Source: a virus
DNA: 26,200 nucleotides
Direction: 5' to 3' (one strand)
IMG/VR virus record: IMGVR_UViG_3300022902_000064
Coordinates: 1 to 26,200 of that record
A program made the translations under genes and the position numbers. Numbering within the stretch: position 1 is the first letter of the stretch; each line of letters opens with the position of its first letter. Below are positions 21,730 to 25,293 of the stretch, piece by piece. The notes under the pieces were generated by a model that was not told where the DNA came from, did no database searches, and saw only the letters and a program-made list of their open reading frames with translations.

Positions 21730-22398
21730 TTACTTTCCGAGCAATTCAGCAATAGCCATCTTTTGAGCAGCTTCGATGTCTTTAGCCTTACCTTCTTCAA
21801 GAAGTTTTTCAGCTAATGCAACAACGCTATCTGCATCAAATCCAGCTTTAGAGCTTTTAATTGATCCGATTGTTGACAGGTCTACTGTTCGGACTTTCCC
21901 AATCAGCCCCTTGAAGGCTTCTCTTTGTTCCTCTGATAAACCAATCATAAAATTAACGACATCCTCAATGTTGTCATCGAGAAAGCCAACCGTATTTCCT
22001 TGTGATAGTACAAGACTATCCTCAACATCTTCTGTCAAATCCTTAACCTCAAGTTTTCCTTGTAGATCATTTAATTTTTCCTCAAGCTTTTGATATTCAG
22101 TCAATGTTACTGTTTCAATCTTTTCTTCCAGTTCTTCCTTTACTTCCTCTTTTGGTTCTTCTTCAACCTCTTTTTCTTCTTCCTCTTTTTCTTCTTCTTT
22201 CACTTCTTCTTCAAGGTCTTCCTTTTCTTCTTCTGTTTCTTCAACCTTATCTTCTTCCTCAACTACTTCTTCTTCCTCAACTTTTTCTTCCACTTCTTCC
22301 ACCTTTTCTTCTTCTACTGCTTCCACTTCTTTTTCTTCTACTTCCTCAACAACTTCTTCTTTTACTTCTTCTTCAAGAAGTTCTTTTTTCTTTGTCAT
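21730..22398 (-). CDS. Nested in-frame scaffold protein (internal start in the protease gene)
   Basis: Methionine 172 of the protease frame is preceded by CTAACC at 22407-22412, 8 bases upstream, as good a start motif as any in the window. Translation there would give 222 residues with the acidic region and the helical C-terminus but no protease. This matches the known plan in Mu (gene Z inside gene I) and lambda (Nu3 inside C), where the scaffold is made from an internal start. The product begins MTKKKELLEEEVKEEV and is rich in Glu, Val and Lys up to about residue 100. The C-terminal part (KLEEKLNDLQGKLEVKD and following) would bind the capsid protein. Confidence 0.68.
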   Translation of the reverse strand: MTKKKELLEEEVKEEVVEEVEEKEVEAVEEEKVEEVEEKVEEEEVVEEEDKVEETEEEKEDLEEEVKEEEKEEEEKEVEEEPKEEVKEELEEKIETVTLTEYQKLEEKLNDLQGKLEVKDLTEDVEDSLVLSQGNTVGFLDDNIEDVVNFMIGLSEEQREAFKGLIGKVRTVDLSTIGSIKSSKAGFDADSVVALAEKLLEEGKAKDIEAAQKMAIAELLGK

Positions 22399-22911
22399 AC
22401 TGTCTTGGTTAGTTAAATAAGTAAGCACCTGTTCGCTTAATTGAACAGGAGCAAGCCCTTTTACTGCTGGTATATTGGTAAGAGCAATCCCAATCAGCAC
22501 ATTTTTGATCTTCTCACCAGTTGAATAGTGAGGATAGCTAATAGCAAGCTCCGAACTTATAAAACGAAACTGCTTGCTTTTGATCTTCTCAATCCCTATT
22601 GGAGTCCATTCAACCTCTGCCAAAAGAACATCGCCCTCTACAAAGACATCTTTAATCCATCCTGCGGCTTCTCCATCACGGTCATGGCTAAAGTTCACTT
22701 GAACATCAGTCCCATAAACTCCTTCATTAAAATTACTAACGAAATCTTCCATCATCTTTTTAGTAATCTTTAATCCTCTATCGTGAATGGTTCCGACTTT
22801 TAATATCTCAATAGTAGAAAGCCTTTCTTCTTTCAAAAGCTTTATGTCTACCATGCTAACATAATCGAGAATGTTTGAGTTTTGCACCTCTGGGGTATCT
22901 TGTTTTTTCAT
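21730..22911 (-). CDS. Mu I-like prohead protease fused to scaffold
   Basis: A 393-residue protein. Residues 1-155 form a Mu gpI-type protease domain: FVSNFNEGVYGTDVQVNFSHD with H76, then GEAAGWIKDVF, VLLAEVEWTPIGIEKI, and FRFISSELAISY with S119/S120 as the probable nucleophile. Residues 170-275 are a low-complexity acidic stretch of Glu, Val and Lys. Residues 275-393 are helical and scaffold-like. The enzyme would cleave scaffold and itself inside the prohead. A second, internal start probably yields the free scaffold. An 8-bp hairpin lies immediately before the start codon and places TTAACA across its loop, so initiation may be controlled. The gene follows the Com-like gene. Confidence 0.85.
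   Translation of the reverse strand: MKKQDTPEVQNSNILDYVSMVDIKLLKEERLSTIEILKVGTIHDRGLKITKKMMEDFVSNFNEGVYGTDVQVNFSHDRDGEAAGWIKDVFVEGDVLLAEVEWTPIGIEKIKSKQFRFISSELAISYPHYSTGEKIKNVLIGIALTNIPAVKGLAPVQLSEQVLTYLTNQDSMTKKKELLEEEVKEEVVEEVEEKEVEAVEEEKVEEVEEKVEEEEVVEEEDKVEETEEEKEDLEEEVKEEEKEEEEKEVEEEPKEEVKEELEEKIETVTLTEYQKLEEKLNDLQGKLEVKDLTEDVEDSLVLSQGNTVGFLDDNIEDVVNFMIGLSEEQREAFKGLIGKVRTVDLSTIGSIKSSKAGFDADSVVALAEKLLEEGKAKDIEAAQKMAIAELLGK
22407..22412 (-). promoter_or_regulatory. Internal translation-start motif for the scaffold
   Basis: CTAACC on the minus strand, 8 bases before the ATG of codon 172 of the protease gene. It equals the motif found before most genes here, and it decides the scaffold start. 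Confidence 0.65.
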
Positions 22912-22914
22912 ATC

Positions 22915-22940
22915 AGGCTCATGTTAAATTATATGAGCCT
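22915..22940 (-). promoter_or_regulatory. Hairpin in the protease translation-initiation region
   Basis: A perfect inverted repeat AGGCTCAT...ATGAGCCT (8 bp) with the 10-base loop ATAATTTAAC ends three bases before the protease ATG. The start motif TTAACA spans the loop and the first base of the 3' arm. A four-codon minicistron (ATG AGC CTG ATA TGA) in the 3' arm ends overlapping the real start as ATGA. There is no U-tract, so it is not a terminator. The Com-like gene just upstream encodes a plausible binder. Confidence 0.6.
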
Positions 22941-22958
22941 CGGGGACTTCTAAAAGCA

Positions 22959-23135
22959 TTATAGGTTATTCACACTCTTATTGCAAATCAAATTGCTCAT
23001 AGCTCCACACCTCTTACATTTAATCACAACAACCCCTTTGCCAATCTCATACATAAAAAGCAATTTTTTACACTTATTGCACCGAAACTCATTGGTTTTT
23101 GAGTCTTCTTTTGATTTCTTCTTGGACTGCTTCAT
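22959..23135 (-). CDS. com: Com-like zinc-finger protein
   Basis: A 58-residue protein. Its start ATG lies 47 bases inside the portal gene, with TTAACA 6 bases upstream, in a different frame. After a basic Lys/Ser leader come FRCNKCKKLLF (C19, C22) and IKCKRCGAMSNLIC (C40, C43), giving a C-x2-C...C-x2-C zinc finger. The pattern and the KLLF and IKCKRC words closely follow Com of phage Mu, which binds a stem-loop in mom mRNA and frees its ribosome site. No mom gene is visible here, but a hairpin sits directly downstream at the protease start (22915-22940), so that is a candidate target. The stop is TAA. The family call is strong; the target is inference. Confidence 0.82.
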   Translation of the reverse strand: MKQSKKKSKEDSKTNEFRCNKCKKLLFMYEIGKGVVVIKCKRCGAMSNLICNKSVNNL

Positions 23136-25293
23136 TTGATCTGTTAATTGGTTTTTTAAGTTGAGTAAAGCTATTTATCGCTGGGACCCCACCAACAGTT
23201 TCAAGCCTATCGGTTATAGTCTTTGGCAATCCAAAACTCCCTTTAAAACTTTCATCACCCATTATCGGCACCCATATACCCCTACAGTGAGTATGTACCA
23301 GATCCATCTTCGCCATCGGATCATCAGCTCTTACAACTCTTTGATCCAAACTCATACACATAGCACAAGTACGGTCATCTAATATCTCGCTTCTCTGGTA
23401 TGCTTTTATGTTAAAAGAATTTTTATTAAAAACAGCCCTTCTTCCTTTATTAACATATTCACCAACAGCAGACCCACCTATGTTGGTTATCATTTTACTC
23501 GCTTGATTCTTCGCAATCTCATTTACTGCTATTGCTATCGCTGGTATTGCTACCTCTTTTGAATAACCTTCTTTGGCAACAGTCTTTGCAGCTACATTTA
23601 ATTCATTTACAAACCCACCGGCTATCTGTCCTGCCTCAAAATCTAACGATTGACTATCTATTGCAGGAGTAGGCGGTTTCCCAACATCCATTTCTGTACT
23701 AGCAGTTGTCTTTCCTGTTTCATAAGACTTCTTCATAGACTCTTTGACTATCTGCTTAATAGAATTTTTATTAGCAAAATCAATATCAGCAACTCCTTTA
23801 AGATCACCAGCTTTCAATTTCCCAGTCATTCTATTGATAGCCTTTTGCAATTTCTCCGATACAGCCAAAACCAACGCAGCTTTCAAAGCATCTTCTTCGG
23901 TATTAAACTCATCATTCAAAAATCGAAAGTCGACCCGTTTCTCTTGCAAGGTCAAGTCCCGAAATAATTTTAGGCTTTTTTTTTGAGCCAAATGTTCATG
24001 CATTTCTTCTTTAGGCCCCTCCATTTCTTTCGGTTCTTCAATCTCTGGCTTTTCAGGGGACTCATCTACTTCATCAAGTTCATCATCAGTAAGCTCTGGT
24101 AGTTTAAATGTATCATGCACAAATTTAGTCATCTTTCCACTATTCTTTATCAACCCAGATGTTTTAAGAGTATTCAACACTTCACTCATTTCTTTAAAGT
24201 CTACATCTCCCAAAGAAACGAATCTTAATTGTGGCATAACCTCCCTTGGTCCAAAGTTGATTTCAACCAATTCTGTTATAACCTGCTTTGTGAATTGTTC
24301 TGCTAAATAAGCAGCCTTATCTTCAACATGCTTTAAAAAGAAACTTGATTGATCTTTCGACAATGCAAAGCTTCCAGTCGAGTCAGTCCCCAACCCCAAA
24401 AACCCTGCAAGTACATTCATCAGGATCATCTTGTTATGATGTTGGATCTGTTGCTCTATTGCTTGACCTTGTGGATTTCCACTAGGAGTTACAATATCAA
24501 CAGTCCAATTCTGGTTCGGTACTATTATACGAGCCTGTTCATGGCTACGGATATTTTTAGCCATTTCCTCTGCTTCTGCTTTTTCATCATCACCTGCACC
24601 ATCTGGCATTACTATCTTCGGCACTCCCACTCCATATCTTTCAGCACTAATACTAGCAACCTTATAAAGAACATCTTTAATATAATAATGTTTCCAGGCT
24701 GGTCTTAATACACTCTGTCCTGTTAAGTCATCTCCTTCTTTATCATTAGTCAAAACCAATAACTTATTAGCGGGTATCTGGGCTTCCATTATATCCGTTT
24801 CATCACTATCAATTCTTTGCACAATCCCTCTGCGACCATCATCTAATTGCCAATTCTGAATTGACGCTGGAATCCTCGGCTCAAGATCTCGTAAATAAAT
24901 CTTTCCATCTCTTTTTTCATAAACCTTTTCAAAACAGTAATGTCCAAAATCTAAATAAGCCAAAGCCTCACGCAAAAAATCCTTCCATGTCCTCTGCATA
25001 GTATCAATATTCTCCTGCACAAAATCCTTAACCTCTTGATCCTTCGCATCATCACTTGCAATCTCTATATACCATTGAGTTGATAACATAGGTGCTTTAA
25101 TTGCATTAAGCACTCCTTTCACAGCACCATCACTTCTTCGCATTTCTTCAACTAGAGTGATTCTTGTTTCATCACGCCATTGAGCATTGGGTTCATCCTG
25201 AAAATAACCTCCATATCTTTCTGATCCAGAATCTCCAAGAGTCTTAATCAGATCCGAGATAGATAAAGGTTTTTGGTCTTTTAAAATTGCCAT
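23089..25293 (-). CDS. Portal protein fused to MuF head morphogenesis domain
   Basis: A 734-residue protein, longer than a Mu-like DUF935 portal alone (about 450-520). Residues 1-400 are portal-like: EMRRSDGAVKGVLNAIKAPM, FGHYCFEKVYEKRDGK, LVLTNDKEGDDLTGQSVLRP, and FLGLGTDSTGSFALSKDQ. An acidic linker with EESPEKPEIEEPKEM-type residues lies near 410-440. The C-terminal third carries a MuF (SPP1 gp7/Mu gp30) region with ILDDRTCAMCMSLDQRVV (C643, C646) and VHTHCRGIWVPI (H667, H669, C670), a probable zinc site. The portal forms the DNA gate at one capsid vertex, and MuF proteins enter the head with DNA. The start motif is weak (TTAAAC 7 bases upstream). The stop TGA is rare here and lies inside the Com-like gene. 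Confidence 0.85.
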   Translation of the reverse strand: MAILKDQKPLSISDLIKTLGDSGSERYGGYFQDEPNAQWRDETRITLVEEMRRSDGAVKGVLNAIKAPMLSTQWYIEIASDDAKDQEVKDFVQENIDTMQRTWKDFLREALAYLDFGHYCFEKVYEKRDGKIYLRDLEPRIPASIQNWQLDDGRRGIVQRIDSDETDIMEAQIPANKLLVLTNDKEGDDLTGQSVLRPAWKHYYIKDVLYKVASISAERYGVGVPKIVMPDGAGDDEKAEAEEMAKNIRSHEQARIIVPNQNWTVDIVTPSGNPQGQAIEQQIQHHNKMILMNVLAGFLGLGTDSTGSFALSKDQSSFFLKHVEDKAAYLAEQFTKQVITELVEINFGPREVMPQLRFVSLGDVDFKEMSEVLNTLKTSGLIKNSGKMTKFVHDTFKLPELTDDELDEVDESPEKPEIEEPKEMEGPKEEMHEHLAQKKSLKLFRDLTLQEKRVDFRFLNDEFNTEEDALKAALVLAVSEKLQKAINRMTGKLKAGDLKGVADIDFANKNSIKQIVKESMKKSYETGKTTASTEMDVGKPPTPAIDSQSLDFEAGQIAGGFVNELNVAAKTVAKEGYSKEVAIPAIAIAVNEIAKNQASKMITNIGGSAVGEYVNKGRRAVFNKNSFNIKAYQRSEILDDRTCAMCMSLDQRVVRADDPMAKMDLVHTHCRGIWVPIMGDESFKGSFGLPKTITDRLETVGGVPAINSFTQLKKPINRSNEAVQEEIKRRLKNQ

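Follow-up and report, generated by a model that had tools for sequence, protein, structure and literature searches.

A Com-like zinc ribbon and a candidate Com-binding element overlapping the hairpin before a phage prohead protease gene

What a Com-like zinc ribbon does between the portal and the capsid genes of a phage, and on which RNA hairpin it might act, is the question raised by the locus described here. The window, that is, the whole stretch of DNA analysed, is an entire virus record of 26.2 kb, and its minus strand carries the structural genes (terminase, portal, Com-like ORF, Mu I-like protease, cement-like protein and major capsid protein). The portal gene (23089..25293, minus strand; Portal_Mu PF06074, E 9.4e-52) is the upstream neighbour of the Com-like ORF (22959..23135, minus strand, 58 aa), the 5' part of which shares 47 nt with the portal 3' end. 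The proposed target gene encodes a Mu I-like prohead protease with an acidic region (21730..22911, minus strand; PF10123, E 1.7e-18).

Regarding the protein, its four cysteines are arranged as CxxC...CxxC, and it matches PHROG 6417 ('translational regulator') with an E-value of 7.8e-6. The Pfam profile Zn_ribbon_Com (PF10122) gives 18.9 bits (E 0.001), below the curated cut-off of 22.9. The 58-residue ORF which the earlier note had placed before the protease is present, but 'strongly resembling Mu Com', as it was described there, claims too much for this protein taken alone. The link to Mu comes from the clade, as a profile built without Mu retrieved Mu Com at E 2.5e-6 with 4/4 of the CxxC cysteines aligned, and among the 16 members of the clade alignment PHROG 6417 is matched by 10 and PF10122 by 8 (E 0.01). 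Both marks of the family, profile-detectable homology to Mu Com and two CxxC knuckles, are found in the window protein. Its predicted fold has five strands (pLDDT 79) and showed no match with E < 0.001 among PDB structures; a PDB sequence search gave no convincing relative, and tblastn in isolated phages no matches. At the level of sequence, the Com homology of this small zinc ribbon is well supported, the window member being a divergent one.

Relatives were gathered with portal, protease and capsid profiles. A Com-like gene follows the portal directly in some 20 distinct leaders, with portal identity down to about 42%, and the portal-Com-protease order is kept in a diverse phage clade, with one extra gene before the protease in some relatives. 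No Com match was found behind the portal in L009, L112, L113, L037, L038, L023, L116 and L143. Another small four-cysteine protein is encoded in L009 upstream of the terminase genes (1833-2039). Several of the Com-negative relatives (L112, L113, L037, L038, L143) have two consecutive ORFs matched by the portal profile, as if the portal and a head-morphogenesis part were separate genes. Just before the protease, the distant Com-negative relatives L163, L166, L170 and L180 carry a TTGAC-type promoter-like sequence, and others a purine-rich SD-like sequence.

The earlier note had seen no mom gene, and this was borne out, as a Mu Mom query had no match in the long Com-positive records searched, the window itself being a 26.2-kb fragment. 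A Mom-like protein (E 1.4e-11 to Mu Mom) is encoded from L182 1444 onward (record G005, locus L143), in a relative without detectable Com; the product of the preceding gene ends in KCPDCGNIFSP.

Upstream of the protease, the hairpin that the earlier note had described was confirmed: it occupies 22915..22940 (minus strand; 5' arm AGGCUCAU, loop AUAAUUUAAC, 3' arm AUGAGCCU), with eight base pairs, 3 nt upstream of the protease ATG at 22911, and its loop carries the translation-start motif TTTAAC (22923..22928, minus strand). TAAC stands 7-24 nt upstream of 18 of the 26 starts in the window, against 4.6 in shuffles, and an SD-like sequence precedes none of the 26 minus-strand window genes; Such a motif, unusual as a start signal, is thus real in this genome. 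The covariation check proposed with the hairpin also came out positively, since the hairpin is kept in close relatives and one of its A-U pairs is a G-C pair in L004/L012, a compensatory change which argues that the structure is more than chance. Intrinsic termination was considered for the window hairpin and rejected, as it has no U-run and was not called by the terminator scan, and the window thus has no attenuator composed of a U-run hairpin with an overlapping alternative. Without a U-run, its inhibitory effect would rest on its position. The minicistron ATGAGCCTGATATGA (22908..22922, minus strand), formerly taken as a hint of translational control, does exist and is kept in L003, but it is lost in L004/L012; translational coupling through it was therefore dismissed, and it probably has no function.

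The proposed co-occurrence of hairpin and Com was also found, as a hairpin precedes the protease start in Com-positive relatives. Its type varies among them. An intrinsic terminator was called at the protease leader in 10 of 21 Com-positive rows, compared with 1 of 59 rows without Com. Leaders of this terminator type, with a U-run, are L016, L022, L027, L028, L029, L031, L034, L098, L101 and L181, and relatives such as L027, L028, L029 and L098 do combine the terminator with an overlapping alternative. A hairpin without U-run lies over the start region in the window, L003, L012, L015, L035, L044, L115, L118 and L144, in some cases including the ATG. Since the hairpin is a terminator in many relatives, the control need not be translational.

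As described for Mu, Com is an activator of mom that binds a short hairpin beside a translation inhibition structure, and SELEX with Com from H. sputorum gave the motif GAGNNCC(N)2-3GAGNNCC (PMC6483171). A candidate element of that kind is found in the window at 22935..22950 (minus strand), GA-AGUC[CCCGA]GGCU-C, with a 4-bp stem, a C-N2-GA loop and flanking GA and C, its stem-loop AGUC[CCCGA]GGCU being at 22948-22936. The element consensus, GA-N4-C-N(2-5)-GA-N4'-C, includes the published SELEX motif. From the sequences, the Com site is most likely this short hairpin (22950-22935), and the 8-bp hairpin is probably an inhibitory structure and not the Com site. The expectation of a Com site by the protease start was therefore partly right, as the leader carries the SELEX motif, but in the shorter, competing hairpin.

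In a strict search, demanding four pairs and a C-N2-4-GA loop but not the flanking GA and C, the element was found in 12 of 14 Com-positive leaders, where shuffling predicts about 5% for each. The leaders are interrelated, and these 14 loci were those on which the element had been defined; the latter is offset only in part by the loci examined after the strict search had been fixed, of which L098, L115, L118 and L144 have the element and L101 and L181 do not. A first Fisher test counted one locus twice (L015/L055) and took in a chance element located within coding sequence (L181), so that the count of 20 against 60 leaders is preferred. There, the motif GA-N4-C-N(2-5)-GA-N4-C, searched by sequence only and with no pairing demanded, occurs in 17 of 20 Com-positive and 3 of 60 Com-negative leaders, and with all four pairs in 15 of 20 and 0 of 60, respectively. 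The exceptions are L101 and L181, with Com and no element, L022, where it is mismatched, and L016, with three of the four pairs. L016, L056 and L144 carry the exact SELEX motif in their leaders, and none of the control leaders does. Phages JD024 and Chuche also have it, next to mom-like and methyltransferase genes.

The pairing itself is also preserved through sequence change, as the element reads ACUC..GAGU in L044 and ACCC..GGGU in the homologous leader of L115, a compensatory exchange. A second candidate element, GA-UACC[CCAGA]GGUG-C (22884..22899, minus strand), begins 12 nt within the protease ORF; its TACC[CCAGA]GGTG becomes TTCC[CTGGA]GGAA in L003, with two pairs changed and the pairing kept, and it is not present in L012. 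As MAFFT lost register among elements of differing loop length, pairs were counted with the variable loop bases omitted, resulting in 97.5% of cells paired and a covariation of 1.09 compared to 0.38 when shuffled; this count is partly circular, most rows having been found by pairing, and the sequence-only test is the fair one. Rfam returned no family at cut-off, and for the window only matches at chance level.

The two hairpins are not independent. The 5' arm of the 8-bp hairpin shares 22940-22935 with the candidate element, and the 3' arm of the element overlaps the terminator or start hairpin on its 5' side in the window and in all other paired leaders except L056, where the element and the second hairpin do not overlap; the two structures therefore exclude each other. 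The free window leader has a minimum free energy of -11.0 kcal/mol and, with the element enforced, of -2.1 kcal/mol, a cost of about 9 kcal/mol, and the element alone is weak (-0.9 kcal/mol). The inhibitory hairpin is thus the predicted default, and something would have to stabilise the element in order to open the leader.

Upstream of the element there is a promoter-like sequence, TTGCAA-17-TATAAT (22958..22986, minus strand), separated by 9 nt from the stem; in number, sites of this kind do not exceed in the window what shuffling predicts. The 9-nt distance from TATAAT to the stem is shared by L003 (identical in sequence to L007), L012 and L015, and it is 11 nt in L044 and L115; as the TATAAT of L015 lies inside the com ORF, it follows the element and not the com stop. 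The element may accordingly lie near the 5' end of a capsid transcript, as judged from these positions.

Compared with Mu com/mom, the locus shares a gene for a Com-homologous zinc ribbon just upstream of the proposed target and a hairpin with a C-N-GA loop adjoining a hairpin with start signals; in the Mu leader, these are AUGC[CUGCGA]GCAU followed by a CCCAC..GUGGG hairpin. Both constituents, the inhibitory hairpin over start signals and the Com hairpin next to it, are found in the window. However, the Com hairpin of Mu lies beside the inhibitory hairpin, whereas the candidate element of the window overlaps its 5' arm and excludes it. The proposed target is a prohead protease and capsid operon, with no mom found, and in many relatives of the window, unlike in Mu, the inhibitory hairpin is a terminator. 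The com-DNA methyltransferase pairs of phages such as B3 and Phipami28 are similar in that com overlaps the start of its neighbour and has the same element in its 3' end; they differ by their DNA-modification target and by having two elements per leader. Among phages with com-mom or com-methylase pairs, B3, JD024, Phipami28 and Mcat5 (L120, L122, L123, L124) each have two copies of the strict element, located at the 3' end of com. In antitermination of the LicT/BglG type, an intrinsic terminator is preceded by a hairpin that overlaps it with its 3' arm and is stabilised by a protein. The action proposed for Com is alike, with an upstream hairpin stabilised and overlapping the competing one by its 3' arm; the protein, a zinc ribbon, and the RNA element are unrelated, however, and the competing hairpin of the window lacks a U-run.

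The explanation that best fits these sequences is anti-termination or anti-sequestration dependent on Com. By default, the 8-bp hairpin would form and cover the protease start region, its place being taken by a terminator in many relatives. The short hairpin GA-N4-C-N(2-5)-GA-N4'-C would be transcribed first, and Com would bind there, tying up the 5' arm of the inhibitory hairpin; once that hairpin is blocked, the protease gene could be expressed, together with the cement and capsid genes that follow. As Com would be made with the upstream portal, a feed-forward delay would result, with capsid production following portal and Com. That a Com-family protein binds the element, frees the leader and switches on the protease operon with such a portal-to-capsid delay is considered reasonably likely. 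The gene order, the element, its exclusivity with the hairpin, its co-occurrence with Com and its enrichment are read from the DNA; from there, we infer that the window Com would bind the element, would activate and not repress the protease operon, and would set its timing, with the promoter-like site in use. The earlier suggestion that Com controls its neighbouring gene is upheld to this extent by the synteny, the SELEX motif in the leader and the association of hairpin and Com, and the translational mode is not required.

It is unlikely that the hairpin is a mere terminator, or a decayed one, dividing the portal operon from a separately promoted capsid operon, with the zinc ribbon as a bystander. 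The U-run of the hairpin in 10 Com-positive rows and the TATAAT just upstream of the element would agree with this, but the GA-N4-C repeats, the agreement with SELEX, the overlap and the association with com in unrelated settings are left unexplained; moreover, as the promoter-like site precedes the hairpin both in the window and in close relatives, the hairpin would end the operon's own transcript. Low probability is likewise given to a Com that, once bound to the element, acts as a repressor of the protease operon or regulates its own expression, for instance when capsid proteins are in excess. Protein and site would be the same, and the second candidate site just inside the window protease ORF could let the bound protein block ribosomes; however, since element and inhibitory hairpin are mutually exclusive, the leader should be opened by binding, and Mu Com activates (PMC6483171). 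The earlier proposal, in which Com binds and opens the 8-bp hairpin itself, is very improbable even though this hairpin is adjacent and covaries in close relatives, because its stem and loop sequence change completely across the clade while the GA-N4-C repeats persist, and the SELEX motif sits in the other hairpin. Finally, that the element is a chance pattern from the inspection of many hairpins, as its first description from 14 loci and its strict form in about 5% of shuffled leaders might suggest, is largely refuted and hardly credible, as later loci, controls, host genomes and the independent SELEX motif concur.

Patescibacteria are the likely hosts of the phage clade, because a 5.3-kb contig from a Candidatus Magasanikbacteria MAG carries a portal relative (L181); the capsid profile found nothing in genome contigs, nor in 86 genomes belonging to the same order as this MAG. 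When the Com profile was run on 379 and 380 genomes (Patescibacteria phylum and class, respectively), 42 further com-like loci were examined, and a complete paired element was found directly 3' of the com-like gene in 24 of them. The density amounts to 24 elements per 5,880 nt behind com versus 12 per 240,818 nt in the remainder of these loci. Among these 24 leaders, the 3' arm of the element pairs downstream in 21, as seen in the MFE structures, and a U-run is present in 22. The downstream gene encodes NrdD, the anaerobic ribonucleoside-triphosphate reductase, in 14 of 20 cases by Pfam (5/10 and 9/10). Some of the host zinc ribbons are fused to one or two PAS domains (L187, L190, L195, L196, L215 and L222), and the PAS-fused proteins L187, L190 and L196 exceed the PF10122 cut-off (30.3 bits in L187). 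A PAS-fused Com is possibly a sensor-RNA-switch protein.

An open-access literature search, with subscription journals outside its scope, found no paper on this Com-element arrangement. The Com protein family and its motif have been described before. What appears to be new is the set of targets, the two-state design with its overlap, and the presence in Patescibacteria. One protein family and one RNA motif concordant with SELEX thus recur before phage capsid genes and before nrdD of Patescibacteria. It is somewhat more probable than not that Com proteins are widespread anti-terminators or anti-sequesters in Patescibacteria and phages, acting through one element on cellular nrdD, in some cases fused to PAS, and on the timing of phage capsid genes. 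This would give many small zinc-ribbon genes a specific, testable function, and would point to a regulatory system in a phylum difficult to work with, as well as to a switch at the portal/capsid boundary. If true, Mu com/mom would be one special case of a broader Com RNA switch.
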